A stretch of 64,000 nucleotides of DNA, taken from contig NC_088709.1 of assembly GCF_963576615.1 (NCBI RefSeq), positions 19,179,243 to 19,243,242 of the forward strand, written 5' to 3'. This document shows positions 23,102 through 48,007 of the stretch, piece after piece (within the stretch, counting starts at the first letter, position 1; the number at the start of each line of letters is the position of its first letter). Origin of the DNA: Watersipora subatra (Eukaryota; Bryozoa; Gymnolaemata; Cheilostomatida; Watersiporidae). The notes beneath the pieces were generated by a model that worked only from the letters and a program-made list of their open reading frames with translations, had not been told where the DNA came from and made no database searches. Made by a program: the position numbers and the translations under genes.

Positions 23102-26100
23102 TTATTCACAGCAACAGGTGTAGTCTCTTGCGCATACAGCTGACATAAAAACATGCTTGCCAAGGTTGGTAGTGGAAGTCCAACTGCACCAGAGCTGCCG
23201 ATCACTGCCAACATTTTTCACAAAGCTTGTAATTCGATCTTTGCTCCATGGATCCCGCTTAATGCATGATGTCATCATGAACCTGGAAAAGTATGGACCG
23301 TAGGCTATAAAAGTTATTACTTTTATTTATATGAATCTCAGTGTCTGTCTGTTGGTCGTTTGTTGTTTACTTGTCCAATTATACCAATAACATTTTAGAA
23401 ATGAAAAATCAACAGTGTTCTGGATTTGAAGTCAGAACTTCCAGGTCAGCGGATAAGTATGCTAAACCACAAGACAGTGTGTCCTACTGGCTTAAACCAC
23501 AAGACAGTGTGTCCAACTGGCCTAAACCACCAGACAGGATGTCCAACTGGTCTATACCACAAGACAGTTTGTCCAACTGGCCTAAACCACAAGACAGTGT
23601 GTCCAACTGGACTAAACCACAAGACAGTGTGTCCAACTGGCCTAAACCACAAGACAGTGTGTCCAGCTGGCCTAAACCACAAGACAGTGTGTCCAACTGG
23701 CCTAAACCACAAGACAGTGTGTCCAACTGGCCTAAACCACACGACAGTGTGTCCAACTGGCCGTAGCGATGAATAATGGTACATATCATACTTATTACAC
23801 CCATCAACCTTTAATGATGATTGGTTAAAATACTCGCACTTCAGCTAGCATACTTAAGGAGCATTACGCAATTTTTTTGGAAACGCTTGCCCAATTTATA
23901 ATAATCGCTCTTAATATTGTAAGATTAATTGCAATGGCCGGCATTCACCTAGTTGTCATATATCTGTAGCAGACGGATGAGAAAGGTTATGTCTGTCTGG
24001 TAGTTTGACTCAAGGTACTAGTTCTATTCTAGCTAGTAGTTCCCAGTATGGTAGTAATTGTTGGGGTCACATTAGTAGTTGAAAACAAGAGAATAGTTTC
24101 AAGTATATTATTAGTTTACATTATACTAACTGTTCAAATTGTTGTATGGTCGGGGTTGTGACACTTATAATAAATTGATGTTTAAAGTTACAGAAGTCGC
24201 AAAAATTTGGTGGCTTCACATCAAAGTGGTATTTAACCTAGTGCTAGTGCGGAGAGAGGGACAACTCCTATACAGGAAGTTATATGTAAATTATACTAAT
24301 TATCAAACACAAATTATAACATAAATTTCAAATTAAAAAATATAAATATATTATGTATTATATAAGTAATATAATATTGGCCTATATATAATATATAAAT
24401 ATTATGTGACAAATGAATAAAAATTTTGAATTTATAAATACACAAATTATATTAATACTTCAGAATATGCTAGTGCATAGTTCTAAATATAGTAGTACTG
24501 TTAGTTCGAATGATTTTAGTGGTTTCAAGCATATTAGTATTTGTAGTTCAAATTCTACAAGAAGTACCAATTATACAAGCAGTTCAGATCAAATGTCACT
24601 TGAACCAGCTTAGTAAAACCGGTATGAGAATATATTCCCATGCAATGTTTTATGCCTTTTCAATTATGCATATTGAAAGGGCATACAGCATACAGCAAAT
24701 GAAAAGCATATCTCTAGAAGTGAGAGCTATTCTTGTCTATGCAAAATATAAATAACTATTCATTTAGTTTATTCAGATAGCTGAGTGTTTGGAGCCCGTT
24801 GCTGTGCACCTCTTATCACATCATTAATACCAATCCTCTCTGATATTCGACTCACTAGTCAGGTTAAAACAGGAATAGCGTATGCTATCCCAAGCTACAT
24901 TTCTTCTTTTGTAAAAAAGTTGTGAAAATATAGGTTTTACAAACTTGTACATGCAGGAAGTCATGGAGACCTCTCTTTTGAGATCATTTTAATTTAATGT
25001 GATTACTACTACCATAAATGTGTGCAGGTTGTTAAGTATTCACAACTCACCCATCAGGACAGATCACTTTGTCTGTTTGGGGGATAAAGCGAATCAGACT
25101 CTGTACTTCTGCTTCTAAGATCAACTGGCAGCGTGCGACAGCCTGTCAAAGGTTATGCGAAAACAAATTTGGTCCCAAGGTTAAGCATGATGCTCTCTCT
25201 ATGTTGATGAAAGTTCATTCTGACAGTTCCTATACAGAAACTAAGGTCAAGTGGTGGTCCTGACCAGCTTGACCTTTCAGTAGGAAGAGCTCTATTATAG
25301 CCTTTGCTCCAAGTCTCGGTAAGAAAAGTGATACCATTACTTGAACAGATGTTTATTGTAGTTTTCAAAAGTTAATAGCCAAAGCTAATTGTTGTTAACA
25401 GCTAACTTCCTTGCTACATTGCAGCAAGTTTGGGACCAAGTTGCATTCACAGATCCGCGTTTCAAAAATATGAATACATATCCATTAAAAGGTCAACCAT
25501 GGCAGCAGGTATAAAGTAGATTATTGCAATATTTCCTTCAGCTACATTTTTATTGGATTATCAGGCAATCATTTTGTTCTAGCACTTTAGTCTTACTAGT
25601 TATTGCCTTAATAGTTATAGCCTTACTAATTATTGCCTTACTAGTTATTGCTTCACTAGCTATTGCCTTTCTAGTTATTGCCTGACTAGTTATTGCCTTA
25701 CTAGTTATTGCCTTAATAGTTATAGCCTTACTAGTTAATGCCTTACAAGTTATTGCCTTACTAGTTATTGCCTTACAAGTTATTGCCTTACTAGTGATTG
25801 CCTGACTAGTTATTGCCTTACTAGTTATTACTTCACTAGTGATTGTCTTACTAGGTATTACCTTACTATTTATTACCTTACTAGTTAATGCCTTACAAGT
25901 TATTGCCTTACTAGTTATTGCCTTACAAGTTATTGCCTTACTAGTGATTGCCTGACTAGTTACTGCCTTACTAGTTATTGCTTTACTAGGTATTGCATTA
26001 CTAGTTATAGCCTTACTAGTTATTGCCTTCCTAGTTATTGCCTTACTAGTTATCACCTTACTAGTTATTGCTTTACTAGTCAGTGTCTTACTAATTATTG

Positions 26101-29100
26101 CATTGCTAGTTATTGCTAGAGTCATACAAAGTCCCCTCGATCATGTTGTCAATTCACTATGTTTCCATGACACATTAAGGTTCGTGTCAACCGCAAGGTG
26201 GAAATGACAACAGTTCACAAGTCAAGCGAGTGTTGTTACTCACAAATGTTTACCAAATGTTTCACGTTTGCGAAAGATGGAAATGGCACTTGAAGATGTT
26301 GCGCAAGAAAATGGTGTTTAAGCTATTCCATTTCAAACATTTTTTACGCTCCAGTCATCCTTGTTTTGATTTAAGCAGTTTCAAATGGGCTGCTATGGCC
26401 CTTGGAATAGAAATTCTTTTGTTTTTTAACAAAGATCCCACGTAATGTGCATAATGCAATATACACATGTACACACACGCATACGCATGTGTGTACATGT
26501 GTGTATGTGTGTGTGCGTGTGCGCATGTGTGCGTGCATGCGTATGTGCGCGTGTGTGCGTGTGTGTGCATACACATGTTTGTGCGTGTGTCTGTGTGCGT
26601 GCTTGTGTGTGTGTGCACATGCATGCTTGTGTGGGTGTGTGTGGGCATGAGTGTGTGCGTGTGTGTGGATTCCTATCCAAAGAGCCCACATAATGTGCAT
26701 CATGCAAATGTCCATTGAACCACTTATCGCCAGGTAACTCATCGTGGGCACAACTCAAAACCTGCATCATTTGCATCATGGAAACAGCGATAAGAGTTCA
26801 TCTAGAAAATCTAAATACGACATTCGTTTTTTTTTGTTTTTACTTCAAATTTAATACAAATCAATTCTCCATCACTCAGTCATATTATATGACAAACGTA
26901 TTGTGTGTGCACGCGTAGGCACCTGTTTGTGTGTGTGTGCGTGCGTGTGCGCATGTGTGCGTGTGGGTGTGTGTGCGTGCGTGTGTGCACGTGTGCGTGC
27001 GTGCACGTGTGTGTGTGTGTATGTGTGCGTGTGTGTGTGTGTGTGCGTGCGTGCGTGCGCGCGCGTGCGTGCGTGCGTGCGTGTGTGTGTGTGTGTGCAC
27101 GTGTGTATGCATGTGCGCATGCACGTGCGTGTGTGCATGCGTGTGGGCATGTGCACATGTACGCGTATGTGTACATGTGTGTATGTTTGCGTGCGTGTGC
27201 GCATGTGTGTGTGCGTGTGTTTGTGCGTGCGTGCGCCTGTGCGCGCGTGTGTGCGTGTTCATGTGTGTGCGTGTGTGTGGATTCCTATCCAAAAAATTTT
27301 TAATCATTCTGCTCTAGCTTTAAAAATCAATTTACTCAGCTGAATAACTTAATGACCTCTACAAATTATTCTGTGAAACATCATACTGAAATACTTTTTA
27401 AATATTAGAAAATTAATTATACATGATTAGAAATAGTTTTCAAAGAAAATAAATTTGGAGGTGACTACACACCCCTCTTTATGTATCAGTTGTCTGTTCA
27501 TTCTATGTGTGAGCACAATTCTAAGTAAACAGCTCTACTAGTTTTCACTAAGAGAATAGAAAAGTTGTGTCTACTTTAAGGTCAGCTAGTTGTAAATACT
27601 AAAAGCTCATCTTCCCAAACCCATGACAGGTTCTTAATCAAAGATGAACTTGCAAAAATTTTAATAGATTTTAGTTGAAAATTGTCACTATTTTTCTATC
27701 ATATGCAATTGTTTTTAATGTTTGATGTGGTCTGACTGCCAGCAAGTTTCAAGATTAAAGTCGATAACACTTGATTACAGCTAAAATGCTCAGATCAATC
27801 GAAAGTATGATTGTAATATTTATATTTGCAAAGAGACCGACAGAATAGAGACTCGTAACGCTGCAACTTAAACGGAACAGCTGATATCAAAAATAACGGA
27901 AAGACCAACATAATGAAGACACATAACGCTTCAACTTTGATTAAAATCAATCAAGTTTTGTCGATTTTAATCGTGAAACATTCTGGCAGTCAGATCAACT
28001 CAAACATCAAAAACAGTCGAAAATGATAGTAAAATGTTAATGTTTTCTGATAAAATCTACTAACATTTTGTGTGCAAGCTCATCTTCAATGGAATATTGA
28101 AGATGAATTATGATTGATATCGGGTTTTTCGTCATTTAGTTCTGCTTTAGAAGCAAGCCACATTTTAGGTGAAAACTCAAAAAAACCTTTTAATCTCGCA
28201 GTTGTGTAGTCCTATTCAGAAAAAATTGTCCTATGTCTGTTTTTTGCATCTTTAGTTACAAATTTTAATATATTCACTGTTATACATGTATATATTAGTA
28301 ATTTATTGACTATAATTTCGCTTCAAATATAAATGTTTTTCAAACTATGCTGTACAACAACAATAAAAAAGGCAACAGTTAGCCACTAAAATCAAATAAA
28401 TAGTTTGGCAAATAGCGTGTAAAACACCTCTCTTTGTTAAGAGAAGGCTCCTTAGGTGAAATAGTCACATTTACTATTCGTTATTTACATTTAGATTGAT
28501 TACATATGTATGACTCAATAGTTAAGCTTTGGCAGGTTTGTTGCTCTATCCTAGCCTGTGGATCAAGCAGGCTAAGCAGTTATAGCATATTTTACATGTT
28601 TGAATCAAACAAATGTACATTGCTTACTATTGCTGGACTTGCGGCCTTGGATTTATAGGTAGCCGTGCAGTTTTTGATATTGTCGGGGAAATACTCTGTG
28701 CCATCACAGTTTTCATCATCTTTGCAACGACACTCAGATACGAAGTATCTATCTGGAAAAAAATAGAGCAATGCAATAAAGAGGTTTATTTCTGATATCC
28801 ATAAATAATTTTAGTATATCTGCCACAATTTACACAGTAGTAACTAATGTAGAGATTTATAGGTTAGATTCAGGCATAAAATGCTTTCTAACACGTTTCA
28901 TCCTTCAGTATAGTCTACTAGTCACTATATCCAGTTATCTTTCAATCAAAGTGTTTGATATGCATGAGACTGTTAATACTGAAAGCAAATCCAGCTTTTT
29001 TTCAATTCTACAAAAAACAGGTCCGGGATACATTAAAACTGCATTGTGTCATTGCAGTGTGGAAAGCAGTAATTTTTGCAGTGAACTACAACTTTATAAT

Positions 29101-30299
29101 GCGCCTTAGACATTTACTTCTGATGTAATTGTGTTTTTCTGGTGGTGAACAGTGTTTGCTGCATAAACTTTTCTTTTGTCAACAACTTAGTAGTAGCTAC
29201 AATCAAGTATTCAAAGCAAAGATAGGGCATCTACTCTTAGGTTTCGACTGAAGAAATCATGGTTACCTACGTAAAACAAAAACATTTTTCCTCTGAAAGA
29301 AGCTTAAGGCTATCATTTTACTGATTTAAATCAAGAGCAAAGATTTGTACTGAAAAAGCATACGAATTTCAATTAAATAAACTAGTGTTTCATGCTTTCT
29401 AAACTCACATTCAAATGTTTTCAATTGCTATGGCAGCAACAGCTTTTACATGATGCATCACACTTTAGTGAAACTACAGAGCTGAAGTTATGTATATAAA
29501 ATAGATCTGAGTTGTGATGGCCGAATACAGACCTGGGCAGAGCACAGTAGAAGAAGAACCATCTAGCAAAGTACTAGGAGGTCCTTCGATCCATATAGTA
29601 GTGTCTTGAGCTACAATAATAATGAATTCCTTGATCTAACAAAACCGAATACCTTATTCCAAGTCAACGTATAAAAACAGTAGGCTACGTGATTTCATGT
29701 CCTTTAAAAAAAGAAACATATCATGGAGCTGAAAGGGTTTCTATAACACGGTAATAATTTACAGGCATATAACTTGTAGGCATAAAACTCTTCTGGTATT
29801 AAGTCATCAAAGTCCATCATGATAAACATTACAGCTTTGTCATGGTGAAAACGGGCAGCGTGCACGTCGCAACCTCGTAAAGGTCTTGATTGCAAATGAT
29901 CCTACAGGATATATATGTATATATCATGTATATATATTCTATATATACAAGATATATATACAGGATATAGATTTTAACTGTTGATAGTTTCAAGGACACA
30001 ATACATGTATACCTTTTCACTAAATTGTATTATTCTAGAATACAGCCTAGGAGGCAATAAGCTACATCCTTGAAACAATCAGTAGTTGAAAGTAAGCCGT
30101 AAGTAATTCTAAGTAAAGCATTAACTAAGCACTATACATATTAGAGCTCACAGAAATTACCAGTTAATCTACCTAACAGTAAATTGTAGCTAATTTATAA
30201 TTCCTAAATCATGAGTGATCAATGTTGAAGCCACACACTTATCGTACCTGAAATGAAGCCAAGAGCTAGTAAGAGAAAGAGAATAGTTCTCGACACCAT
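23102..30299 (-). CDS. Gene A: secreted Cys-rich two-module protein
   Basis: Coding exons in order: 30248-30299, 29533-29610, 28628-28752, 25051-25142, 23102-23282 (TAA). They give 528 nt and 175 residues, with codon phase intact at all junctions. Exon 1 is a signal peptide ([17 protein letters not shown]). The mature protein has thirteen cysteines; eleven are shared in position with genes B and C, and the C-terminus ends in a local CC cluster (YTCCCE). Exons 2-4 have exactly the lengths found in B and C. Intron 3 is 3.5 kb and full of repeats (15-bp array, two GT blocks, foldbacks), unlike its sisters. I do not recognise the family; a secreted or extracellular role is all the sequence supports. 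Confidence 0.88.
23320..23460 (-). repeat. Dispersed repeat C, head and tRNA-like part
   Basis: The head ATGAATCTCAGTGTCTGTCT is followed by a tRNA-like box B region (minus strand TGACTTCAAATCC, about 23425). It is interrupted by the 30-bp array that follows. Confidence 0.55.
23455..23765. repeat. 30-bp minisatellite, about ten copies
   Basis: Unit contains CCACAAGACAGTGTGTCCAA. Frames on both strands stay open because the period is a multiple of 3. It lies just upstream of gene A's last exon on the gene strand, inside its intron 4. Confidence 0.95.
25585..26125. repeat. 15-bp minisatellite, about 36 copies
   Basis: Unit close to TTGCCTTACTAGTTA; many units carry the SpeI-type palindrome ACTAGT. 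It lies in intron 3 of gene A. The minus-strand frame (AITSK repeats) is not a gene. Confidence 0.95.
26146..26787. mobile_element. DNA transposon-like element, family E, copy 2
   Basis: Left end CTATGTTTCCATGACACATT, right end GCATCATGGAAACAGCG. The stretch near 26315-26350 (AGCTATTCCATTTCAAACAT) matches copy 1 near 16955. It contains the first GT-rich block. Confidence 0.6.
26461..26668. repeat. GT/GC alternating purine-pyrimidine tract 1
   Basis: About 200 bp of TG, CG and CA dinucleotides, the best local Z-DNA candidate. Related flanks on each side (CACGTAATGTGCATAATGCA and CACATAATGTGCATCATGCA) suggest it was inserted or duplicated as a block. Confidence 0.93.
26905..27278. repeat. GT/GC alternating purine-pyrimidine tract 2
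   Basis: About 370 bp of the same type, ending in GTGTGGATTCCTATCCAAA as tract 1 does. The arginine- or histidine-rich open frames across it are spurious. Confidence 0.93.
27640..28095. mobile_element. Foldback MITE-like element, family F (best copy)
   Basis: Arms of about 110-150 bp. Left: GATGAACTTGCAAAAATTTT, later GTGGTCTGACTGCCAGCAAG. Right, reversed: GATGAGCTTGCACACAAAAT, later GATCTGACTGCCAGAATG. The centre of about 150 bp is not conserved. It lies in intron 3 of gene A. Target duplication not resolved. Confidence 0.78.
28095..28460 (-). repeat. Dispersed repeat B plus LINE 3' fragment
   Basis: 28095-28285 matches 20640-20855 in reverse complement. 28285-28460 matches the 3' end of the LINE at 7225-7400 (shared CAACAGTTAGCCACTAAAA with one change). 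It is a 5'-truncated LINE copy. Confidence 0.65.
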
Positions 30300-31205
30300 C
30301 GTCATCTCCGTCCTACATCTGCTTGTTGTCCAGTGCATACATAACGAGCCTGTTAACCAGCTGGCAATAGTTGCAAGCTATTGGATGAACTAAAAGTCTA
30401 TCAAACCAATTTCCTTTCAGAGAAGTTGTCTCCTCTATAACTAATGGTTTTGTTACACAGCAAAGAGAGTGGTAGAGATTGGTTATTTCTGTTAACATTT
30501 TGGCGTTGTCATGTTCAGGTTTTCATATGGGTAAATTTAGAACACTTAATAGAGCCAGTTTTGAACTTGTTACTATGTTTAAAAAAGTTGATCTGCCAGC
30601 ATCAAGTTGTTCATATATAGTAAAACCATATAAAGCTATGAATAAATAATAAATAGTAGTAAATAACTAACATAAAGCTGATTTTACTGATTCTACTCTC
30701 AATAGCCCATCTTCACAGTTAGTCACTTGTTTAGCTTTAAAGTAACAGCCATAAAAATATATTTACTATAATTAATGCTTGCACCATGTTACATGAAACT
30801 ATGTTATATACATTGAATGTTTCAGATTGCATAACATGTGTAATTATGCAACTTCTAGTAAGATAGTATTCTCCTGGTGCCCTTTGAATATTCTTCAGAA
30901 GTATCTCTAAGAATGTTACTACAGGTTGGTATGCAAATGAGAAACCAGCATATGAGAGACACACCTGTCTACTCGTGTTGGTAAATTCCGCTCCAAGATG
31001 ACATCCTATCATTTTGACAAAATATTTTTGAAAATGTGTGTGGTATTCCCAAAAGTATTTATATAGTTCTAATTAGCCTCCTAATTCAGAAGGTTCAACA
31101 CACATATTCAGCGAGATCCTAAGTTTGGCATTGTGATCAACAAAGTTACCAGGGCCAATTGACAAGCACGTGTTTACTCTAACAGTAAGCTTTTTTCTTT
31201 TTAAC

Positions 31206-31445
31206 GTAAGATAATTACTTTATGAAGTCTCTTACAGTAACAGATAATAACTTTATGAAGTCTCTTACAATAACAGATAAAAACTTTATGAACTTTCATA
31301 TAGTACCAGGTCGGAACTTTAAAAACTCCCACTTAGTACTAGCTAGGGGCACTAAGGATTCCTATATAGTACCAGATAGGAGTATTATGAACTCTCATAT
31401 AGTACAATCTAGATACATTAAAACTCCCACTTAGCACTAGCTACG
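31206..31445. repeat. Diverged tandem repeat, about 34 bp
   Basis: About seven degenerate units with CTTTATGAAGTCTCTTACA or related TATAGTACCAG motifs, about 0.9 kb upstream of gene A's start on its strand. Confidence 0.7.
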
Positions 31446-32740
31446 GGGTTAGTGTACTTACCACTTTCTAGGGGTTGGGGTGGTTCTACCAATGTATCAT
31501 ATTCAAGGTCTAACTAATATTATAGCTGTAGAGGAGGTCTCCTAGTATGAAAAGTAATTGCTGTTTTTGTGAAAATTAGAATTGTCTAGTAAAAATAACT
31601 GTAATTAATATCATGTCGAGGAAATAAAATTCAGTAGTTTTTGATGACTCCGAATCTAAAGAAAGTGAGGTCATCTTTTAATATTGGTTTAGTATTGCAG
31701 TTTTCTTCCTTACTCTAGATAACATAGTAATCCTCTAATAGCCATTAGCTGTCTACCACGAAGTTTAAACTTATTTAACTCTACAACAAACTCCACCACA
31801 AAGTTCAATTCAAAGCTGAGATGAGATGGTAAGATATTTGTGGACAAATTATGTAAAGGTTTCTTATACAACACTGCTTAATAACAAATCAGTCGTTTAA
31901 CAAACTAGTACACGTAAGTGAGTGACCCTGATTAGGGTTGAAAACAAAGCAGCAGTTCAGCAGTAGTCATGTATAAAACGAAACAATTCGCATTCTTTGT
32001 TTGTGTATTTTTCCCAAAGTGAGTCCGTAAAGCATAGAACAATGATGTATGTATAATAATATGGAAACTGTATGGTAGTTTACTTACTAAGCCTATTTTG
32101 TGACTAATGCTTAACATGCAATAATAAGCTAAATTTATAAAATAAAATAGTCATAAAATTTATATCAGTTTTGCATAGCTTCATTTGTTGGCAAAAAATT
32201 GTAATTAGAATCTAATAGAAATGCTCATGAGAAAGCAGGAATTGAGACAAGCAAGTAATTTGTAAAGCAAACATTTTATTTCTATGTTACATATTATTTT
32301 ATTGTCTCTCTATTTAGACATTACCATAGAAAACTTTGTCATAAGGATCTGGGTAAAAACTTTGTAAAAAATATTTTGATTATTATAACGGGTGAACAAT
32401 TTTAGTTAACAAGTTTTTAGGTTAACGCACAATTTTGATTAGCAAAATTAAAGCAAGGTTTTCCTTGCAAACAGAATATTTGACAATCAAAAAGTATGTT
32501 TGTGCAAAGGCAAGATTATAATTTTTGAATCGTTAGATTTATAAAAAAAATTATATCCGCTGTATTTTGTTTCAACTAATATAGCTTTCAAAAGCTTTGA
32601 TTTTCATAAGAAATACAGTGATAGCAGTTTAGTAGTTGTGATTAGGAGAGGTAAAAACTAGCAAGAATATATTCATGTACTTTGGCATAGGCCTGTCCTG
32701 TTTACATTTTGTAGCTATATGACTGTAATTAATTCTATCA

Positions 32741-34066
32741 CTAGTTGAATGCTCGGTATTGCCCGGCTAATAACAAAGTCTTTGGACAAAAAATTTATAT
32801 TTATTTAACATATACAACATTTGCCCTTCTAACTGTTAAATTTCAAATCATGAAAAAAAATTTTTTTTCTGTTATTCGAATGAATTGAGAGAAAAAATAA
32901 AACAATTATAAAGGTTTTCATACAAATGCAACTTTTAAATTTCATATCATAAAAGAACTGGTTTGTTGAAATGAATTGAGAAGAAAAATAAAATTTTAAA
33001 GGTGTTAAAATGTAAATGTAAATTAATAAGCAAGTAATTGTTAAATAAAGTCTGTTTTGCTATGATTACAATGAAAAAATAATTGGTATACAATTATACG
33101 ATTTTTATTCATTTCAGAGCTAGCATCATAAGGCAAAAATATCGATTAGAGTGGTATGGAAACACATAGTAATTATCTAATGCAAACACCTTCTGGTAAA
33201 AATCATCAAAATTTTTATACGTATTGTATATGTTAAAAATTAGTAACAAAACAATATGTTAACTTTAATAACTGTAGTTATTTACAGTGAATTTAGTGTA
33301 TTTAGGGGCTATGATTGGCAAGAAAATGTAACATTACAATGTACTACGTGCAATATGCACTGTGGGAGTTGTTACCATCAAGAAAGGCGTATAACATAAA
33401 CGTCGCATATAACTTGAGCAGATTTCGCTCACTTAATGCATACTTGAAGGAAGTTTTACTATGTGTTTTACTAAATTACACTTCAAACTTTCAACTAAAA
33501 TTTCATCACTTGTCTTTTTTCGAAACTGTTTTACTATAAGTTATAACGAATAACACTGAATTGAGATAGCAAGCAACGTATATCTTTTTCAGGCATTGTC
33601 GGAGGGATTTCGGCAAATAGTATGTCAACATTTTTATTATTTCATCGTAATCGGTACACCAATGACTAAATTATAATTTCGAGAAAGATTTTTGTTGATA
33701 TCGTATGATGAAAAACAAATTCACCCTAGTATGGCGAGGACAAAAAAAGCATCATGTTTCATAGAGTAAGGCAAAAAAATCTTATTGCTGAGGCATCAAA
33801 AGCCCGTGGGCCCATTGTACTAATTAATAATTTAGCCTGTACAATTGCGAAAAGTGTATACAGTATATGGTGAGAGCAATGAAAATAGCAAAAACAACGT
33901 AGCTACATGTATGTGGTTAGGCGCGCGTGTTTACAAAATTGTGGTTACAATCTTCATGAGTTGATCCAGAATAAAGTGCAGTTCTAATTCTTAGAATTTA
34001 ACCACCATAGCTGACCAGACAGCGAATGACAGACGATGACAAATTTGAAGATTTATATGATGAATA
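32741..34066 (+). repeat. Dispersed repeat C, reversed copy, split by D
   Basis: The reversed tail (ACTAGTTGAATGCTCGGTAT) is at the left. A tRNA-like part is near 33895-33985 on the plus strand (GTAGCTACATGTATGTGGTT, then GAGTTGATCC). The reversed head (AATTTGAAGATTTATA) ends near 34066. A pogo-like element is inserted in it at 33091-33817. Confidence 0.6.
33091..33817. mobile_element. Pogo-like MITE, family D, decayed copy
   Basis: Similar along most of its length to 62369-63396 (shared TAGTAATTATCTAATGCAAA and TTAGTGTATTTAG regions) and flanked by TA. The ends are badly eroded, and it lies inside repeat C, so C is older. Confidence 0.62.
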
Positions 34067-34071
34067 GCTGT

Positions 34072-34170
34072 GCTACTCGCGTTGCCGGGTAATAGAAAAG
34101 TCATTGGACAGGAAATTGATTTGTATTTAACATAACAACATTTACCATTCTAACTTTCAAACGACATATT
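34072..34170 (+). repeat. Dispersed repeat C, reversed tail fragment
   Basis: GCTGTGCTACTCGCGTTGCC followed by GGGTAATAGAAAAGTCATTG matches the reversed tail at 15880-15996. It begins straight after the head of the preceding copy. Confidence 0.65.
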
Positions 34171-34934
34171 GTGGCGGACGTTGTATTTACTTTATTTACT
34201 CCTATATGCCTTAAACTGTCTTGTCCTTTTAAATATCGTGATCCGTCTCCCCTGTCTGTTGTATATGCTTATTTCTTATTACTCTGTACGTTTTTAATCG
34301 GCGACGCCAATAATTATTTAATCATACTTATACTTCTTTTTATATTATTATTATATTCAGTTTTGACTGTGTGCCATGTTTTTACTTGTTTTTGTACATA
34401 TCCACCTTCCTTTTATATGGTAGTAAATTGAGTAACTTGGCAAGATGGGCCAGGCTCCCAGTGGAGTTGTGAATGCCTCTGTTGTACATTGATTGTGGCG
34501 CTTACAGTCAAATACAAACTTATTCACTTTGAACTCATACACTTTTTCTCTGCCTGAAACAGGGGTGGATTGCAGTAGCCAGTTAAGGGAAGGCGCTTGA
34601 CCTTAACAATATCATGAGAAAAGTGTATTATCTTATAAACAATGAAAAGTAATTGTGTAATCGAAGTTGCTCGCTATTAGCCTGACAGATTGCCAATAGA
34701 AAATTTGAGCCAACAGCTTCTCGTAATGTTGTGCTAAGACCCTGGGTGGTACGCAAAGCCATAGGGTATGTGCTCTAATATAGCAACTTATTTGGGCATG
34801 CTAGCGCCTCAATATCTATGACCTACTGGGTAGGGCCTGATACTGGCAAGCGCTAGGGTCCGAGATCAAATCTTCTTATGTAAGATTTTAAGATATATAG
34901 CCGGAATGCAGACAGGTGACAGACTTTTAGAAAC

Positions 34935-34935
<1 letters not shown>

Positions 34936-34978
<43 letters not shown>
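34936..34978. repeat. (TA)n microsatellite
   Basis: About 21 uninterrupted TA units. Confidence 0.97.
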
Positions 34979-36077: not shown

Positions 36078-39000
36078 TTAGCATTTACTTTTAACACACA
36101 CAGCAGAAACAACTTGATACTTTGCTAGGTTTGAGGTAGACTTCCAGCCACAACTCGCTATCTTATTATCCAAGCTTTTTAGGTATGTGGTATCTCTGTT
36201 TGTGCTCCAGGGATCTGTTAGAGTGCAGAACTCCATTGTGTACCTACAAACCATCACGAGTATATAGAGAGTTTTAAAAAACAAATGAGAAAGCAAGAAA
36301 TGCGGAGAAACTTAGGAGATACCTGAATAAATATATGTAAGAGCATCAGCTGAACAGATGAAGGAATAGAGAATAACAGACTCAAGTGAATAGACAGAGT
36401 AATCGGTAGATTACTAGCCAGTCGTAAGGAATAGAGAATGACTGACTCAAGTGAATAGGCAGAGTAACCAGTAAATTACTAGCCAGTCGTAAGAAATAGA
36501 GAATAACTGACTCAAGGGAACAGGCAGAGTAACCAGTAAATTACTAGACAGTCTTTAAGTCAGATTCCTAAATAATAAATTTCTGAACTTTCTTTACTTT
36601 TAGAAACTGTGATCTATCAACTGCAAACATCACTCAGCTTTTATAGATAAACTTACACAAAATTTTTATAGATTCTATCAGAAAGTATCAGTACTTTTTC
36701 TTTTTTTGTTTGTGTTTCTTGTTTGAGGTAATTCGACTGCCAAGGTGTTTCACGATCAAAATTGACAAAACCTGATTATTCACATTCACAATTAAAATGC
36801 TGACAAAAAAGTGTGAGCCAAAATGGTGTTGCTAGTTGCTATCATTGCAATAATCGCTATCGGCTATTGTGGTAAAGTTACTGTGTTATGCGTTTTTATT
36901 CAGTCGGTTTTTTGGAACTATGAATGTTATATAGTCTCACTTTTACTTGATCCAAGCATTTTAACGGTCATCAAGTTTTGTCAATTTTAATCTTGAAGCG
37001 CATTGGCAGTCAGATCACCTTAAATAATAAAAAAATACCCATACTTTCTGATGAAATCTACTGAAATTTCACCATTTTATCCTTTCTACCCTCATTTAAT
37101 CCATTAATCCTCATTTAATCCATTGAGCATTGACAATGATTTATTGAGCGTTTTATCCTTTAGGATCTCAACTGACATTTTCTACTGGTAGTAAATAATA
37201 AAGTTAATAAAAAATAAAATTTATCAATAAAAAAATTAATAATACAATTAATAAATAATACAGTTAACAAATAATAAAATTCTTTGAATAAAAAAATAAA
37301 AAAGTATAATAAATAGTATAAATCATGTCCGAAAACGCCAACAGCCATCAGTCACATAAATTATGAAAAAGATAAGGTGAATAGATTAGCAGTAATGTTT
37401 GGTAGGAGGGCTTCAAAAGTGCCCAACTTTACAGGGAAAACACACTTCAAACACCTCAGCTATCAGCCACGTGTATACAGATGCTTAAAATAAACATCTT
37501 TTAGACACCGTGTGGACGCAACTGTCTAGTGGTAGCTACCAAGGTCTATTAGTAAAAATATAAAGAAATACTAACCCAGCAGGACAAGTCACACTTTCTC
37601 CATTGTTCTTCTGTTCTTTCACCATTTGAACATCTTTACCTCTTTCCAAACTGCATCTCACTACTGCCTAAAGCAGCAAAGCATTGTTTTTTGTACCATT
37701 TTAAGTTGACTGCAGGTCACATTCTAGATTGAAGCTAATTTGAGCCATACAAGGGCTTGAAATGTCTACCCTTTTTTGTTTTCAGCTTAAATTGGGATGT
37801 TCTAAGATTTAACATGTGCAACCAAATTCTGCATATACTTTTTAAGTTGTTTAGACATATATTTATGCATACAGTCTACGAGAAGTACATCATGTGAAAA
37901 TAAGTTATTTCTTAGGTTAATTCTAATTTTATCATGATTTTCCATCACTTGTTTAGCTTCCTTAGAAAATATTGAGGATGTATATTTATTAGTATGGCAT
38001 CTGGAAGATTTTGTGAAGACCAACAACTTTACCTGTCATTTACAATCACAGGAATAAAAATGAATCATATTGAATTAATTGAATGAGTTGATTTAATCAA
38101 TATTATAACTAAACATTTCTTTCATAATTCATTAAATGAATTGATTTACTCAGTACTGTAACTGTATTTATTATTTGCTTAGTGTTATATTTTTGTCAAT
38201 TGGTGAACTAGCAAACACACACGCTTACACATCTACACACACACCCACATATGCACACACACGCACACACGCATGTGCACAAATAGTCAGAAGTATCAGT
38301 TCTGACAGTTTTTATTATAGCCTACTAGTTTTTTGACATTACAGCTATTTGGCTGACATCTAAAGATACCATGACTCAGAAATGACAACTGGCTGACTTT
38401 GGATAAAAGACTGACTTTGGTATAGCCCAGGACCGCTGCTTTTTTGGTTGCTGTGCACTTCTTCTTGTCTTCAGGGTACAATTTAGAGCCATCGCAAATG
38501 GTCTGATCATGACAGCTGCACTTGGAGGCATAATAACCATCTGTTGAATAAGACAGAATGTTTTTAGGTTGTGTATAGCTGGAAATACATCTACCAATAC
38601 AAAGAGTCGTTTACTACGTACATTTGGCAGCACAAACAGTTATTTCCTACTAATACGTAACAGAGAGTACTAAGGGTCTCTTTATGCTACAAATTAACAA
38701 AACTCATAGTTTTATGATCAGCTGAGTATGCAGAGCCTCTTCCTAGCACATGAAAAGTTGTCAGTTAAACGAATAACAAATAATGAAGTCATGCACACAC
38801 TTTCCCTTTAAATAAACTAACAAGTTATTTAGTACAAAAACTGAAGTTTTCATCTCTTGAGGGCTTGTGGAGTTGTCTCACCTGGACAGTAAACATCGGA
38901 TGGGGAGTCATCTCCTACAGCACTGTTTGGTCCAACCAGATAGAATGAAGCGTCCGTAGCTGTAAATTATCGTGTTTTATAACAACATAATAACATTTAA

Positions 39001-39491
39001 CCGCATTTGAAATTATAAGAAATTAATAGTAAGCCTACCAACAAATTATTAGAATATATTATACACTTCTACAGTTAGACTTCAGGCAGCTTTAGAATCC
39101 CTTAAACAATTCTTTTAGCTATACAATCAGTATTTCACCCTCATTAGACTCAGTTATATAATGTTACTTCAATAGATGTACTCACTCAGATGTATGTGTA
39201 TGATTACTAGAGCTAGTTGAACAAATAAATTGAGAACAAATCTGTTGTTTTACAAGTAGATTTGTCTCTTTCAAAGCAACTTTACAGCAAATCTGTTGTT
39301 TTACAAGTAGTAATTCCATATCAAATAATGTATATATGCATTTAGCTACCTCACAAGTACAATGGATATTATAAGGAAATCGAGAGCTTAAGTTTCAAGT
39401 TGCCGTCATATAAAACAATAGATATCTTACCATAAGATAGATCTATTACCACCACGAGTAACAAAGCAATGAAAATTTTTTGCATCTTCAT
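36078..39491 (-). CDS. Gene B: secreted Cys-rich two-module protein
   Basis: Coding exons in order: 39431-39491, 38882-38959, 38416-38540, 37576-37667, 36078-36243 (TAA). They give 522 nt and 173 residues with every junction in phase. Exon 3 ends at the less usual donor AAA followed by gtcagt; skipping that splice would give a readable tail of about 40 residues to a TGA at 38296, a possible alternative form. The signal peptide is MKMQKIFIALLLVVVIDLSY, with a second Met at residue 3. Eleven cysteines line up with gene C. Conserved blocks: DASFYLVGP, GDDSPSD, CSCHDQTICDG, MEFCTLTDPWS, VSAVCVKSKC. Compared with A, its introns are short. Function unknown; secretion is the only firm inference. Confidence 0.9.
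36361..36556. repeat. 65-bp tandem repeat, three copies
   Basis: Unit contains GAATAGAGAATAACTGACTC and TACTAGCCAGTCGTAAG. It lies in the last intron of gene B, about 120 nt from the acceptor of exon 5. Confidence 0.92.
36640..37075. mobile_element. Foldback MITE-like element, family F
   Basis: Left arm 36640-36770 (TCTATCAGAAAGTATCAGTA) and right arm 36955-37075 (CAAGTTTTGTCAATTTTAAT; ATACTTTCTGATGAAATCTA). It lies within the last intron of gene B. Confidence 0.74.
38200..38282. repeat. (CA)-rich microsatellite
   Basis: Interrupted ACACACGC and ACACACAC runs just downstream of gene B exon 3. Confidence 0.85.
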
Positions 39492-42400
39492 AATAGAGGA
39501 TTCAAGCTGAAAGTGACAAACCTTATCACTTCCATATCGCTTCAATTCATAGCAAGATGTTACGCAACAGATCACACATGCGACAACTATGGCTTGTGCG
39601 TAGCCTAGTAACCATATCATTAATACATAAACATAAGTGTACCAACAGAGGCATAGACATAGAGATATAATATTGCTTTGACAAATTTAAAGGAGAAGAA
39701 TCCATTTCTCTCTAACGTGATAGCTTACTTCCTGTAATAATGCATTAAAATAAAAACTAAGCCATGCGGAATTTTTTACCTAATATTGGGCTATTTCGGC
39801 TAAATTTGGCTAAAACGTTTGTTTAAACTTACAGCATTCAATGTTACAACAATGTTGTTAATGATTATCGAGCTATGATCGCAGATACATTGATAAAGCG
39901 CATATGCACCTATATAGGATAAGCACATCAGTTTTTTAGTGTTTTTATAAATAGATTGATTGATATTACTATGGCTGTTAGCCAGTTGACCAGCAGTTCA
40001 AAGGTCAATTTTTTATAATTTTTAGTTTATAAATTAGATTAACAGTTTAATTTATTAACTTAATTTATTAGAAATTAATAAAAAAATTCAAATTTGTATT
40101 AATTACTAAATAAACATGGTTTATTACAAAAAAGGAATTTTAAAGAAATGTGTTCATTTAAAAAATTGGATGCAATCGCTGTATCTGTTTGCAGAATTAA
40201 TCAGACAAAACCAGTTTTTTTGTTGCAGAAATCAACTAACAGTGGGCTATGATAGCCTATGGAAGGTTATTGTAAATAATTATTAGTCATTGTTAAACTC
40301 CAGATTTGAAGATTTCACCATTTGCTAGAATTTTTATCATCATAATCCTACTAGAGACAGCTTTTCATTGATGAATGCAAGCTTTTTCATTTTATTCTTC
40401 CTCATGAATATCATGAAATGTAAACATTAATTCTGCCAACATACATACATGTATCAATATACATACATATCAATATACATAGCCTATATATTGATACGCG
40501 TATATTGATTTGCATGATATTTCTGATGATAGCCTGAGAATCTCTATTCTATTTCTATTTTATTCTAATTTTAATCTATTCACATAAGATATTTTTCACA
40601 AGAGCAAGAAATATCATTTCATGATATGCATGATACGGATTGTGTGTATCAATATGCGTGTCAGTGTACATATCAATACACCTACATGTATTTATTGACC
40701 AATTAAAGTTGAAGTATTTCCAAAGCTGACCTCCTCTCAGATTCAGTAACATGCAGTCTAAACCAAGATTGACAATGCATTAGTTTATCCCACCTACATG
40801 CGTACCATGGTATTGGCATGGTATACATACAGCTTCTTTCACAACCGTTGATATTGCATCAACTCAAATTACGCTCACTGTGAGTTGCTGAGTGTCAATC
40901 AGTGGATTTTTCATAATGTATGCTGACAAAGCAGATGTTACTATAATTCCTCAATACTTTGCGAGTCAGCTTTCACGACTTGATTATTTGATTGGCTAAA
41001 CAATATTAATTAAAAACATTAATATAAATAGGAATAATTAAAATACATAAACCACATAAATCTCTTTCATACTCTGGCTCAGTTGAATCACTCTGTGAAC
41101 ATCATTGTGATAGAAGTCACCATATTTTGTTGTTTTCCTGTTACATTTTGTGAAAGTACAAACTGCTTTTAACTCTTTTCATTGTGGCCCTTAAACACTC
41201 TCTACCCTTGAAGCTGTCTAATGACTGAAAAAAGGAGAAATGCTTATGATTCATGAAAAAATGATTCTATCAGATACGCGGTTATTAGTTTCTACTTAGC
41301 GGATTTTCACTTACCATGGATGTGAGGGGCATGTCCTCGAGTACCCACAAAAAGTGAGCGATTGCTTCATTGGATTATTTTTTCCTGCATATGTTGCAGC
41401 CAGAGGAATGTTGGTGAGTGTAATTAACCGCCAAACATACAGGTTAGCATCCAGACTGATGATGTAACAGGCAAAGGTACCGCCATGTCTTCACATTCTT
41501 TGCTGGCTACCACCAGGCGCAAGTGACACTCAACAGTTTAGCTAATTAATAATTACGGTTATGTCTATAACATTATAATAAATATTTGTAAATTAATGCA
41601 GTACAAATAAGTTTTCAACACAGTCTGTTATAAAAACATCTAACTTGTGGTTTTTAAATTTTGCTATGTAAACCAACATTAAAAACCATCTTTTAAAATA
41701 AAATAAAATAACATAAAATGCTGTAAAAGGCAGAGCTGCTTTCTATGCTTGTTAGACATTTGTATGCCAGTAAGTACAGTACTCAGCTATAATATTTGTT
41801 TAAGCCATGGCTGATATGTCAAGAATGCAATAAATATAATTCTGGTTTATAACGATTCTAAGAATACTTAACTTGCTTAACAAACTTGAGTATTTCAATT
41901 ATTTTGTTTAAGTTTTAACATAAAAAAATGTGAACTGCTGCAAAAACCAAATTTTTATTTAATTTCTGACAGTCCTGGCTAAAGTATTTCATAACTGTAA
42001 AAGACTGATGGCTGATTTAGCTTATTTTCTGGCATTTTTCGCAACATTGAATTATGTACAGTAGACATTTGTATATTCTATTTTATTTTTATAATAGGTA
42101 TGTTTTATTTACATTCAACTTTCAGATAAGTCTTAATTCTATAGCAATACAGACCCTAGGGCTACCATAGTACCGACACAATCCCTTTTATTGCGCAGTG
42201 TAGTATTAACCATCATAAGCAGGCTATAAAAAGTTTGTATAAAAACAACTCCATGGCAGTTATCAATAAAATTGGTTGTTATACATTTAACCAGATGTAA
42301 AACTCGAATCTCAGTATTCAACTTGCTTGAAAACTTGCTACACTGTGTAGTGCTCATGTAGCACACTGTACTGTGCAGTGTTCATGTAACACACTGTACT

Positions 42401-44880
42401 GTGCAGTGTTCATGTAACACACTGTACTATGCAGTGTTCATGTAACACACTGTATTACGCAGTGTTCATGTAACACACTGTACTATGCAGTGTTCATGTA
42501 ACACACTGTACTATGCAGTGTTCATGTAACACACTGTACTATACAGTGTTCATGTAACACACTGTACTATGCAGTGTTCATGTAACACACTGTACTATGC
42601 AGTGTTCATGTAACACACTGTACTGTGCAGTGTTCATGTAACACACTGTACTATGCAGTGTTCATGTAACACACTGTACTATGCAGTGTTCATGTAACAC
42701 ACTGTACTATGCAGTGTTCATGTAACACACTGTACTATGCAGTGTTCATGTAACACACTGTACTATGCAGTGTTCATGTAACACACTGTACTATGCAGTG
42801 TTCATGTAACACACTGTACTATGCAGTGTTCATGTAACACACTGTACTATGCAGTGTTCATGTAACACACTGTATTACGCAGTGTTCATGTAACACACTG
42901 TACTATGCAGTGTTCATGTAACACACTGTACTATGCAGTGTTCATGTAACACACTGTACTATGCAGTGTTCATGTAACACACTGTACTATGCAGTGTTCA
43001 TGTAACACACTGTACTATGCAGTGTTCATGTAACACACTGTACTATGCAGTGTTCATGTAACACACTGTACTATGCAGTGTTCATGTAACACACTGTACT
43101 ATGCAGTGTTCATGTAACACACTGTACTATACAGTGTTCATGTAACACACTGTACTATGCAGTGTTCATGTAACACACTGTACTATACAGTGTTCATGTA
43201 ACACACTGTATTACGCAGTGTTCATGTAACACACTGTACTATACAGTGTTCATGTAACACACTGTACTATGTAGTGCTCATGTAACACACTGTACTATAC
43301 AGTGTTCATGTAACACACTGTACTATGCAGTGTTCATGTAACACACTGTACTATACAGTGTTCATGTAACACACTGTACTATGCAGTGTTCATGTAACAC
43401 ACTGTACTATACAGTGTTCATGTAACACACTGTATTACGCAGTGTTCATGTAACACACTGTACTATGCAGTGTTCATGTAACACACTGTACTATGCAGTG
43501 TTCATGTAACACACTGTACTATGCAGTGTTCATGTAACACACTGTACTATACAGTGTTCATGTAACACACTGTACTATGCAGTGTTCATGTAACACACTG
43601 TACTATACAGTGTTCATGTAACACACTGTATTACGCAGTGTTCATGTAACACACTGTACTATGCAGTGTTCATGTAACACACTGTACTATGTAGTGCTCA
43701 TGTAACACACTGTACTATACAGTGTTCATGTAACACACTGTACTATGCAGTGTTCATGTAACACACTGTATTACGCAGTGTTCATGTAACACACTGTACT
43801 ATACAGTGTTCATGTAACACACTGTACTATGTAGTGCTCATGTAACACACTGTACTATACAGTGTTCATGTAACACACTGTACTATGCAGTGTTCATGTA
43901 ACACACTGTACTATACAGTGTTCATGTAACACACTGTACTATACAGTGTTCATGTAACACACTGTACTATGCAGTGTTCATGTAACACACTGTACTATGC
44001 AGTGTTCATGTAACACACTGTACTATACAGTGTTCATGTAACACACTGTACTATGCAGTGTTCATGTAACACACTGTACTATACAGTGTTCATGTAACAC
44101 ACTGTACTATGCAGTGTTCATGTAACACACTGTACTATGCAGTGTTCATGTAACACACTGTACTATGCAGTGCTCATGTAACACACTGTACTGTGCAGTG
44201 TTCATGTAACACACTGTACTATACAGTGTTCATGTAACACACTGTATTACGCAGTGTTCATGAGAACACTCAATTGGCCTTTCTTACAATCTGCTGTGGA
44301 TAGGCTAAAGATTTAATAAATATATTGCCAACTATTACAAGCCTGGCGTAGTTCACAGCTGCTTCTTTTTTCTACTTGCAGCAGGCCTTACAAGCAGTTA
44401 CAATATATTGCCTCTATATAAACTGCAAAAATTTATTTGAATTTAATATGTTGTGAAATCTATCTCAACCCTCGAATTTTCTAAAATATGCTTTATATTT
44501 GTTTGGCAGAAAAACTATATTATTTTCTTTTGGATGATAGCAATTGAAGCTGTTCTAGTTTTTGTACTGCTTCATATTTTATGTATTCTCAAAGTTCATA
44601 GCAATTACAATTACAGTTGCAAAGGTATACTGTTATTAAATTTGTAATCATTATAGTGTCTAAAAGTAGGGAAGGGTGTTCCTACCAGCCTGATGGAGTC
44701 TTTCTATAGGAACCACAGCTTGTGTAATAGGCAGGTGTATAAACTATGCTGCCAGTTGCTCATGTTTAGTTACATTGGTAAAAAATCCGTCTGCTTTTTT
44801 TATAGTAATGCTATATATTTCACATACAGAAATTCTAGTAAAATCTAATAACGTTTAGAACAATGAAAGAAACAACTGCT
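39492..44880. other. Intergenic stretch between genes B and C
   Basis: AT-rich, with palindromic TACATGTATCAATATACATA-type runs near 40440-40700 and the large 28-bp satellite at 42339-44262. No convincing exon. Confidence 0.55.
42339..44262. repeat. 28-bp satellite array, about 69 copies
   Basis: Unit ACTGTACTATGCAGTGTTCA plus TGTAACAC. Most units are identical except for a variable heptamer (TACTATGC, TACTATAC, TATTACGC, TACTATGT, TACTGTGC). Each unit can form a CACTG/CAGTG stem. TATGC units dominate the left part; TATAC and TATTACGC units recur in groups from about 43120 on. Confidence 0.97.
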
Positions 44881-47800
44881 TCAGCAGGTTCTTTTGATGC
44901 AGACAGCCGACACAGGCATGTCATTATTGTTAGTTCCAGACTGCTTTTTCCAGGTACAGCCAAGTCCACCATCAGTAACAGTGTAAGACAAGAAGCTCAC
45001 CCTTTGCTGGCTCCAAGGGTCATTCTTTGTACAGAAGTCCATCACTGAGCTGTAACAATTGAAGTTTATTGATATGGTTATTAATTAAGCCTTTCAATTG
45101 TTCTAATTTACTTCTAGAAGGAAGTCAAATAATATTATATTGTTATAAGGTAGATATAGTCTAATACAGCACACATCAGGGTTGTGAATATTAAATAATA
45201 ATAATGCTGTTGATAATAACAATAATAATGACTAGAAATTCCCCTGTCATACAGCCCACGACCTGATAATGGAATAAGTGATAACAGAAAAAGGAAATGG
45301 CAGTGCTGGTTGTTGAAAAAGTAGTTGTGAGCAGGAATTGGCAGAGTATAGTGTAAATGAAAGTTGTTCGAGATGACATAAAATAAATTTGAGGGAGCAC
45401 GACTTCAAAAAGGTGCAAATAACAATTTCAACAAATATAGAAAAGTTAGATAAGTTCAGCGTTCTGTTAAAGGTCACGCAATCTAGTCTCCTCTCTTTTA
45501 CGTTGTAAGATTTGGTCATTGATAACTAATGCGCTTCCTAGCGAAGTTGTTAATCTCTAGATTAAATTGTTAATTAAAGCTGTAGGCCTAACCTACTGTA
45601 ATGTATGTAATTTAACAACAACAGTAAGGAAATATGTTTATTATAATTCTGAAATGCAGAATTAAAAGTAAAATGGCAAGTTACTGTGTGCTATACACAG
45701 TTTGAAAGTTGGTTGTGTTGAATGTAGAATGGTTTTGATAGCGATCTTTAACCAAAAGTAAGTATGAGTGTTCACGCGTCTGGAAGTTTTCTGCAAACTG
45801 CAGCAAAATAAAAAATATGTTCTCGGCATTGTAGTTCGACCCTAGCTTGTACATAAGTTGTAAAGAATTTTGGCTAACGTTTTAAATAGTTTAATGAAAC
45901 CTTCCGTGATTGGACAAAAAAACGTAGGCTGATAAACTGTGTACCCCAATTTCGTACCTGTAAATCGGTCTACACCTCAAACGGTCTACGTTTATTACAG
46001 AAACCTTCGAATAAATTCGATTACAAGTAAACAATGCCATAGACTGGTGAAATGAGCACGGTTTTCTCGTGAAATGCGCACTGCTAAATAGTTCTACGTG
46101 TACCATCTGTCGCAAGGCTTTATTGGCGTATCGTAGGCCGGTCTTAACTTTTATAAAACCAAGCTTTTCAAGCGTTTTGTAGCGATTTTCGACCAAATTA
46201 ATCTGTCTATTTGCGTATTATCCGATCAGATGGGTAAGTTTTAAGATACTGTCAACAATTTACAAAGGCTTGGTAACATATTTAAATAGGCTTATATGTG
46301 TTTTGTAACGTTATTATGCTTTAACGACTCTACAAAGTGATGGCTAAATTTGTTGATGAGATTTCGAAGCAAGGGTTTGCGATGTTGTTGATGAAAACTT
46401 TTCGTAAGTTGTGTGCACATGCATTTATCATAAAAACTCTCAAACTTCGCTCTGCTCGTTTGGTCGTGGGATAAAAATAATAATTATTATTATAAAAATT
46501 ATAATAATATTTAGTATAAAAATTATAATAATAACAACCATAATAATAATAATAATTATAAACTATAATAATAATAATAATGATAATAATAATGATGCTG
46601 TTGATAATAATAATATTAATAATAATAATATTAATAATAATGATAATAATGCCAAGATTCTAAGGAAAGCTCTTCAGTAGAAAGAATTATTAAAATGATC
46701 ACCATTGGCTTCAAGCTAAGGCCCGGGCTCATTTACTACCAACTGCTCGGTTGTGAAGACAGTTTCTATGATAATGCCGATTATAATAATAATAAACTGA
46801 GTGTTTAAAAAGTTATTTTAAAATCGGCGCGATCAAAAACATGGTTTATAGTGAGAAGTTCTCTTAGGCCTTTTTATTTGAAGCACCATAAAGCATGCGC
46901 TAACACGTGTAACTCAAATGCTAGCCCATAGCAGGCAAAAGTAAAGACTATGTTTGTTCTTATGATTTTAAGAGTGTGATTGCCTAGCGTGCGGGCTTAT
47001 AGTCATCTCCTGTTTGACAATAAAGCTGATGTGAGTCTGATGGAAGTGTTTTTGTAATAAGCTAAATGAACTTACCCATCTGGACAAGTTAGCTCATCCG
47101 ATGATGATATTGTACTTGACTGAACAGTCACCTCGTACCCAGTGGCCAGCTTACACCTCGCAATAGCCTGCAAGGAGATTAAGTTACAAAGGCTAGTAAA
47201 TGAACCTCAACAATTCTTCTCCGGAATATGTAGTCAGCAGACTTTAGTAACAACGTACCTTTACTTTACCTCCAACGCCAGCCTTCTTATAGGAAGTACA
47301 CTTTCTTACGTTTGTAGGATCAAGGCCAGAACCATCGCATATGCTATCATCATGACAGTAGCACTCTGTTACATGGTATCCAGCTGGAATCACACATAAT
47401 CATATGAAAATCATTGCAACGTTTATGAGACAAATGATAAGATGGTACATGAATTATAGTTGCTATCAGATAATCTTGTATGAGTTGAACTGATCTGATG
47501 TAGTCTAATATGATTACTTTGACCTCCATAAAAGCACAAAAATTCTCAGAAAGGATTTAAGTAAAACTAGATGAAGGCCCAACTATTACATGAAAAAAGT
47601 GACATGAAAAAGATATTACATGAAAAAAGTGAAATAATATGATAAACTCAGAAAACAATGACTTGAAAGTAAGCAATACTACTTACATGGGCAGATAGCA
47701 TCTGAGGGTGAGTCATCACTTGTACCACTCTCAGGCCCCTCCAGCCAGAAAGATGCATCTATACCTAAAAATGTTAATATAAGCATTAGCAAGCAAGTGG

Positions 47801-48007
47801 CACTACTAGTAGCTTACTTTATTATATAATACTAGCATAAAGGGTGTTTGTTACTGTGAAGAGAAATATAATCAATTTAAAAAAATCCAAAAACTTTTAC
47901 TCTAAAAAGTTAAAATATTCTGAGAAATAGTGTAGTAAGCTACCGAGAGAAGATCCAGTCACGAGCAATAAGCCGAGAGCTACGAGACTTCTATTCTTAA
48001 ATGACAT
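44881..48007 (-). CDS. Gene C: secreted Cys-rich two-module protein
   Basis: Coding exons in order: 47944-48007, 47687-47764, 47259-47383, 47076-47167, 44881-45049 (TGA). They give 528 nt and 175 residues; all donors and acceptors are GT/AG and all junctions in phase. Signal peptide MSFKNRSLVALGLLLVTG. Module 1 has six cysteines (46, 55, 57, 63, 76, 94) around CPSGYHVTECYCHDDSICDG. Module 2 has five (117, 126, 151, 170, 175) around CPDGSVMDFCTKNDPWS and PVSAVCIKRTC. The two modules share the plan SDxxxCPxG...C...C...AxxxC. A TATATAAG lies 47-54 nt upstream of the ATG. Family unknown to me; a distant likeness to PCSK9 C-terminal modules is discussed in the findings. Confidence 0.92.
46470..46665. 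repeat. (AAT)n-rich tract
   Basis: Imperfect AAT/ATA trinucleotide runs, in the 2-kb last intron of gene C. Confidence 0.93.

Follow-up and report, generated by a model that had tools for sequence, protein, structure and literature searches.

Three tandem genes for secreted cysteine-rich proteins

The stretch of Watersipora subatra DNA analysed here, referred to as the window, comprises 64,000 nucleotides (C2:19179243-19243242). Three genes, A, B and C, lie in it head to tail on the minus strand, with C at 48007-44881, B at 39491-36078 and A at 30305-23102 in window coordinates. The exons were read from the DNA. Every internal junction in the three genes combines an AG acceptor with a GT donor, and the exon start phases (0,1,1,0,2) are identical. 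Where the sequence allowed several AG-GT lengths for an exon, we took the length that preserved the phases and agreed with the remaining copies; for exon 3, a length of 119 nt would equally keep phase in 12 of 13 copies. An earlier, sequence-only reading of this DNA had described a head-to-tail arrangement on one strand, with exons 2, 3 and 4 of 78, 125 and 92 nt in the same phases in each gene. All exons lie on the minus strand between 23102 and 48007 as described, and the lengths and phases are borne out by splice sites and translation.

Gene A, exon 1 (signal peptide): 30248..30305, minus strand; 58 nt, with ATG, hydrophobic stretch and GT donor
Gene A, exon 2: 29533..29610, minus strand; 78 nt
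Gene A, exon 3 (module 1): 28628..28752, minus strand; 125 nt
Gene A, exon 4 (end of module 1, start of module 2): 25051..25142, minus strand; 92 nt
Gene A, exon 5 (module 2): 23102..23282, minus strand; 181 nt with stop; AATAAA or ATTAAA 164 nt downstream
Gene B, exon 1 (signal peptide): 39431..39491, minus strand; 61 nt
Gene B, exon 2: 38882..38959, minus strand; 78 nt
Gene B, exon 3: 38416..38540, minus strand; 125 nt
Gene B, exon 4: 37576..37667, minus strand; 92 nt
Gene B, exon 5: 36078..36243, minus strand; 166 nt with stop; AATAAA or ATTAAA 121 nt downstream
Gene C, exon 1 (signal peptide): 47944..48007, minus strand; 64 nt; TATA-like word 56 nt upstream of ATG
Gene C, exon 2: 47687..47764, minus strand; 78 nt
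Gene C, exon 3: 47259..47383, minus strand; 125 nt
Gene C, exon 4: 47076..47167, minus strand; 92 nt
Gene C, exon 5: 44881..45049, minus strand; 169 nt with stop; AATAAA or ATTAAA 434 nt downstream

Tandem repeats are found between and within the genes. A minisatellite with a 28-bp unit, repeated about 69 times (95% matches), occupies 42342-44262, between genes B and C, and gene A contains a 30-bp array (10 copies, 23462-23762) and a 15-bp array (35 copies, 25592-26116) in its final two introns.

The encoded proteins have 177 (A), 173 (B) and 175 (C) residues, with 13, 11 and 11 cysteines, respectively. Their N-termini appear signal-like by eye, with a short stretch followed by a hydrophobic run. 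B and C share 37% and 38% identity with A, and eleven cysteine columns are common to all three. Among the sequence blocks previously listed as conserved, CDG and DPWS are present in all three proteins, but A departs from DDSPSD and VSAVC, which B and C have exactly, and reads LDGSSST and MSAVC in their place. Within the window, tblastn matched B to C with an E-value of 2e-13 (exons 3 and 4 linked), C to exon 3 of B with 4e-11 and A to exon 5 of B with 1e-9, and protein C matches copies located on another contig with 1e-15; the likeness among the copies is therefore not due to chance. No fourth copy is present among the tblastn matches listed when A, B and C were searched against all of the window.

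A wider family in the genome

The same 784-Mb genome (239 contigs) contains at least 16 loci of this family on four large contigs (C1, C2, C3 and C6), more than the three of the tandem family originally described. The genome was searched with proteins C, B, one from contig C3 and A, and exons were then read at the matches; the number is a lower bound, given that only the best candidates were scored and that exons were read in a minor part of contig C1. Ten loci (g1 to g10) lie within 0.36 Mb of contig C1, at 46.814-47.173 Mb, with g2 seen only in the 200-kb part of this contig that was read. Besides the three window genes, contig C2 carries a partial copy of A, which is inverted and located about 174 kb away (C2:19026192-19028086); only its exons 4 and 5 were matched, exon 5 being 97% identical. 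One locus lies near the start of contig C3, and one on contig C6.

The exon plan is largely maintained across these loci. In nine of them (A, B, C, g1, g3, g4, g5, g8 and the contig C3 locus), exons 2-5 are all open, flanked by AG/GT sites and joined in the same phases. The 125-nt form of exon 3 occurs in all 13 loci in which an open exon 3 was found, and exon 4 measures 92 nt in 10 of 12 loci and 95 nt in the other two (contigs C3 and C6). Exon 2, in turn, varies: the 78-nt form is confined to the three window genes, six contig C1 loci have 69 nt and the contig C3 locus has 66 nt. Some loci are decayed, among them g2, a solitary exon-5 fragment interrupted by stops, g6, whose exon 3 contains a stop, and the partial copy of A. 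The coding sequences of g4 and g5, which are 65,652 bases apart, are identical, and both are carried by a segment of about 20 kb that is duplicated at 98% (C1:46880503-46900882 and C1:46946133-46966540). This segment was consequently either duplicated recently or doubled in the assembly.

Our protein alignment has ten rows (A, B, C, g1, g3, g4, g8, g10 and the proteins from contigs C3 and C6); g5, being identical to g4, and g2, g6, g7, g9 and the partial copy of A were left out. The g10 row is without exon 2, and the end of exon 2 in the contig C6 row is not fixed. At the junction of exons 2 and 3, where the residue in g3, g4 and g8 is N, the rows typed from tblastn output read D. This was corrected for the cysteine-spacing test, the tree and the whole-protein model of the VMO-I shuffle test described below, and left as it was for the ten-member Pfam and NCBIfam searches, the module-against-module, resistin and PCSK9 hhalign comparisons, the HMMs of the resistin/PCSK9 shuffle tests, one of the pattern scans of prokaryote genomes and viral contigs and the three module models of the VMO-I test. 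The family tree is mostly unresolved, with one of its seven inner branches well supported (contig C3 with contig C6).

Two further places were set aside. A weak one on contig C7 (E 0.37 and 0.56) was not counted as a family locus, and one on contig C8 lies inside an open frame that proved, by eye, to consist of ankyrin-like repeats. This frame (C8:48202500-48204500) is long and consists of near-identical repeats of about 39 residues. In prokaryote genomes and viral contigs no relatives were found at a tblastn E-value of 1e-3 (76 and 18 pattern stretches checked), which leaves a horizontal or viral origin without support.

Codon changes and the status of the genes

Synonymous and non-synonymous changes were compared using Nei-Gojobori counts. 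Among A, B and C the silent sites are saturated (pS 0.76-0.80, pN 0.39-0.43), and a dN/dS ratio for these pairs therefore cannot be given. Values of 0.17-0.21 were obtained for g1 against g3, g4 and g8, which are rough since dS is 1.4-2.5, and of 0.32 for A against the contig C3 copy and for B against g1, also near saturation. Among g3, g4 and g8 the ratio is 0.36-0.63 at a dS of 0.32-0.37. The expectation of Ka/Ks below 1 between copies thus holds for every pair with a finite value; the A, B, C pairs give none. The codon changes fit purifying selection, which is looser among the recent contig C1 copies, and give no evidence of positive selection.

It is very improbable that the loci represent non-functional material, either decayed copies or spurious exons. 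The decay of g2 and g6 and the partial copy of A speak for such an explanation. However, it does not account for the nine loci with open, correctly phased exons, for the ratios below 1, or for the retention of ten core cysteines in all nine alignment rows covering both modules. The initial view of real, duplicated and selected genes for secreted proteins is supported by the splice anatomy, the codon statistics and the presence of 13 more loci in the genome.

Two-module plan of the proteins

The cysteines follow a two-fold pattern, in which C1 to C4 denote the corresponding positions of each half. Module 1, which runs from the last part of exon 2 through exon 3 into the beginning of exon 4, reads C1-x8-C2-x-C-x5-CDG-...-C3-...-A-x-x-x-C4; module 2, which runs from the last part of exon 4 into exon 5, reads C1-x8-C2-xxx-D-x-W-...-C3-x-W-...-S-x-x-C4. 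Six cysteines belong to module 1 and four to module 2, with one more near the C-terminus. The last of these is missing in g3 and g4, which have exactly ten, and the core of the family is therefore ten; the eleven cysteines reported as kept are indeed so in A, B and C, but not in the family at large.

The two halves can be aligned with one another, and hhalign returned a P-value of 4e-4 for module 1 against module 2 (probability 34%, 17 columns). On this basis, each protein likely consists of two tandem copies of one module, although the internal duplication is not proved. The ten core cysteines likely form five internal disulfides, leaving the eleventh free or engaged between chains. Within each module the pairs would be C1-C4 and C2-C3, which we propose by analogy with the disulfides of PCSK9 and resistin, and module 1 would contain one extra pair.

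Likeness to resistin and PCSK9 modules

No Pfam family matched above its curated cut-off, and no convincing match was obtained in Pfam, PDB sequences or NCBIfam. The earlier statement that no named family has this layout is correct for Pfam cut-offs and NCBIfam, but it missed the probable internal duplicate and the resistin/PCSK9-like halves. Four weak matches were dismissed as chance: the PDB profile match 7muc (E 0.014), composed of two stretches of 8.7 and 8.5 bits of which neither passes alone; the phmmer match 7wxe (E 0.45); and, by judgement, Pfam EGF_Tme5 (E 0.011, two of ten members) and DUF7298 (E 0.093, one of three proteins). The Pfam family matched by most members is Resistin, which was listed for three of the ten at E-values up to 10, the best of 0.35 being below the cut-off. 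In the search with the three window proteins, Resistin (PF06954) matched B with 10.9 bits (E 0.72), below the gathering score of 25 bits, and was not listed for A and C.

The resistin and PCSK9 sequences used for comparison were checked through the PDB. With three resistins, hhalign aligned a CPxG-x5-C stretch of 14-16 columns in both module 1 (P 7e-4, 26%) and module 2 (P 4e-4, 35%), values that resemble those for module 1 against module 2. For the whole family, the E-value is 0.0033 against the resistins and 0.024 against the C-terminal domain (CHRD) of PCSK9. The latter match has a probability of 2% over 44 columns, in a register that joins the end of one module to the start of the next. 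Human PCSK9 CHRD, compared with the W. subatra genome at BLAST sensitivity and without a positive control, gave no match.

The matches were also compared with those of shuffled sequences, using four HMMs (module 1, module 2, both modules, whole protein) and six targets. Counts below are shuffles reaching the real score per 1000, for full and then cysteine-fixed shuffles. The HMM of both modules gave 2 and 11 for PCSK9 module M3, 14 and 30 for M1, 10 and 27 for the whole CHRD and 14 and 11 for mouse resistin; for PCSK9 M2 (573 and 508) and RELM-beta (658 and 657) it performed no better than the shuffles, as did every one of the four HMMs. With the module-2 HMM, mouse resistin reached 1 and 3 and PCSK9 M3 21 and 52, and with the whole-protein HMM the CHRD reached 14 and 15 and PCSK9 M3 45 and 68. 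No target stands out with the module-1 HMM alone (best 77 of 1000). As these are 24 uncorrected tests with a mixed outcome, we regard the likeness to resistin and PCSK9 that they indicate as only suggestive.

The best argument for the likeness comes from the spacing of the cysteines, the support from sequence matching being weak. In all nine rows with both modules, the C1-C2 spacing is 9 in either module, which is also the value in PCSK9 M1, PCSK9 M3 and mouse resistin (10 in M2). For C1-C4, module 1 has a spacing of 48 and module 2 one of 52-54; the corresponding values are 49, 48 and 52 for PCSK9 and 40 for resistin. Two non-overlapping cysteine sets within the PCSK9/resistin spacing are present in each of the nine rows (g10 is incomplete), an arrangement that shuffles of B, C and A reached in 4, 5 and 36 of 3000 cases, respectively. 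When the CxxG motif and an A or S near C4 were added to the spacing, six of ten rows passed (B, C, g1, g3, g4, g8), while A, the proteins from contigs C3 and C6 and the incomplete g10 failed; none of 3000 shuffles each of A, B and C did so. The spacing ranges and motifs used in these counts were picked after the likeness had been noticed.

Comparison with the PCSK9 CHRD reveals tandem modules in both, C1-x8/9-C2 with C3 and C4 at like spacing, a glycine two or three residues after C1 (in PCSK9 M2 and M3), and the A-[IV]-A-x-C end of PCSK9 M1 and M3. PCSK9, however, has three modules instead of two, and the family proteins, of 173-177 residues with a signal-like start, lack a subtilisin-like catalytic domain. 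They also lack the CC pair and the extra N-side cysteine of each CHRD module. In the CHRD, the third disulfide links this N-side cysteine to the second cysteine of the CC pair, and the cysteines for it are absent from the family. With resistin and the RELM proteins, the family shares a secreted-type sequence, CPxG and the order C1-x8-C2-x-C, a further cysteine, C3 and C4, the C-x-C being shared by module 1. The differences are the single module of resistin/RELM compared to two, and the absence from the family of C-x-C-x-C and of the RCC end, or CC at C4. A model of exon 5 of B alone (53 residues, without the last cysteine, two window paralogues aligned) is poor, with a pLDDT of 48 and two strands, and does not decide the fold.

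VMO-I and the choice of fold

Vitelline membrane outer layer protein I (VMO-I) is a beta-prism protein, and thus of a different fold, but it matches the same CPxG stretch as well as or better than resistin and PCSK9 do. Its hhalign E-value on the CPxGY stretch is 0.0056, and with the HMM of both modules its repeat 2 scored 10.3 bits, a value reached by none of 1000 shuffles of either kind. Since VMO-I does this well, a sequence match alone cannot choose the fold. A family of VMO-I relatives, acting as egg-coat or mucosal proteins, would be consistent with this score and with the exon-2 segment LEGPESG..DDSPSD, which by eye resembles VESPQGL.DDTALN of VMO-I. We nevertheless consider such a relationship improbable. 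With the same HMM, repeats 1 and 3 of VMO-I were equalled by 31 and 738 of 1000 shuffles, and only the CPxG stretch aligns, not the three repeats. These repeats, viewed by eye, have no C-x8-C and are shorter, with a shorter distance from the CPxG cysteine to the next conserved cysteine. The DD-rich stretch that both possess ahead of a cysteine precedes C1 in the family and follows it in VMO-I, and no VMO-I family was listed in Pfam for A, B and C or for any of the ten members at E-values up to 10. PCSK9/resistin agrees better with the cysteine plan than VMO-I does.

A more serious contender, which we judge plausible without expecting it to be correct, is a secreted family with a fold of its own, again engaged in extracellular binding and perhaps confined to its lineage, whose sole connection to resistin, PCSK9 and VMO-I would be a short V-x-C-P-x-G-Y/F stretch that arose repeatedly among disulfide-rich proteins. 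The outcome of the database searches and the VMO-I match agree with this, as do the hhalign matches, which span 13-17 columns with the sole exception of the 44-column one. Against it speak the cysteine order and spacing, which stay within the PCSK9/resistin range in both modules and over the whole length, and the module-1 end of C and g1, which reads AIARC as in PCSK9 module 1. The reading that we prefer, while putting it at somewhat less than an even chance, is that of a birth-and-death family of small secreted two-module proteins with a fold of the resistin / PCSK9 CHRD type, serving extracellular binding. After removal of the signal peptide, the A, B and C proteins would comprise about 152-157 residues arranged as two tandem disulfide-stabilised modules, each a small beta-sandwich of the resistin or PCSK9 C-terminal type.

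Possible function

Proteins of this kind would act outside the cell, where they might bind a partner such as a receptor or a microbial surface. PMC9816786 and PMC4474570 describe PCSK9 CHRD and resistin as structurally similar, and the former reports that the CHRD binds partners via its modules M1-M3 and that CAP1 binds resistin as well as the CHRD. According to a review (PMC8253364), mammalian RELM proteins are secreted, bind bacterial lipids, form pores and have been reported to lyse bacteria via their C-terminal part. For the Watersipora family, defence could serve as a first guess, albeit a doubtful one, with an endocrine or egg-coat role as alternatives. It seems the most likely of these because duplication in arrays, a pair of identical genes, the decay of some copies and more rapid protein change in recent ones are usual for defence genes.

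It is also conceivable, although unlikely, that the family is a free-standing non-vertebrate relative of the resistin / PCSK9 C-terminal module, with a defence or signalling role that predates RELM and PCSK9. If so, a two-module secreted protein could show the source of both the RELM hormones and the regulatory domain of PCSK9, and the ancestral role could be tested on a non-vertebrate multigene family with such a module plan. PMC1654190 lists Resistin among domains new at higher nodes of the human lineage. In the literature searched, no account of a common source for PCSK9 CHRD and resistin was found. Should the likeness be convergent, the genes would represent one more secreted cysteine-rich family, worth an annotation entry.

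Other features of the window

Pieces of a Copia-type retrotransposon lie on the plus strand at 3310-5547, in three separate open frames. They include gag (PF14223, E 4.6e-41) with a zinc knuckle, the Pol beta-barrel (PF22936) and an SH3-like part (PF25597), together with a sub-threshold integrase match. At 54356-55081 and 58678-60123, long open frames built of short tandem repeats are present on both strands.
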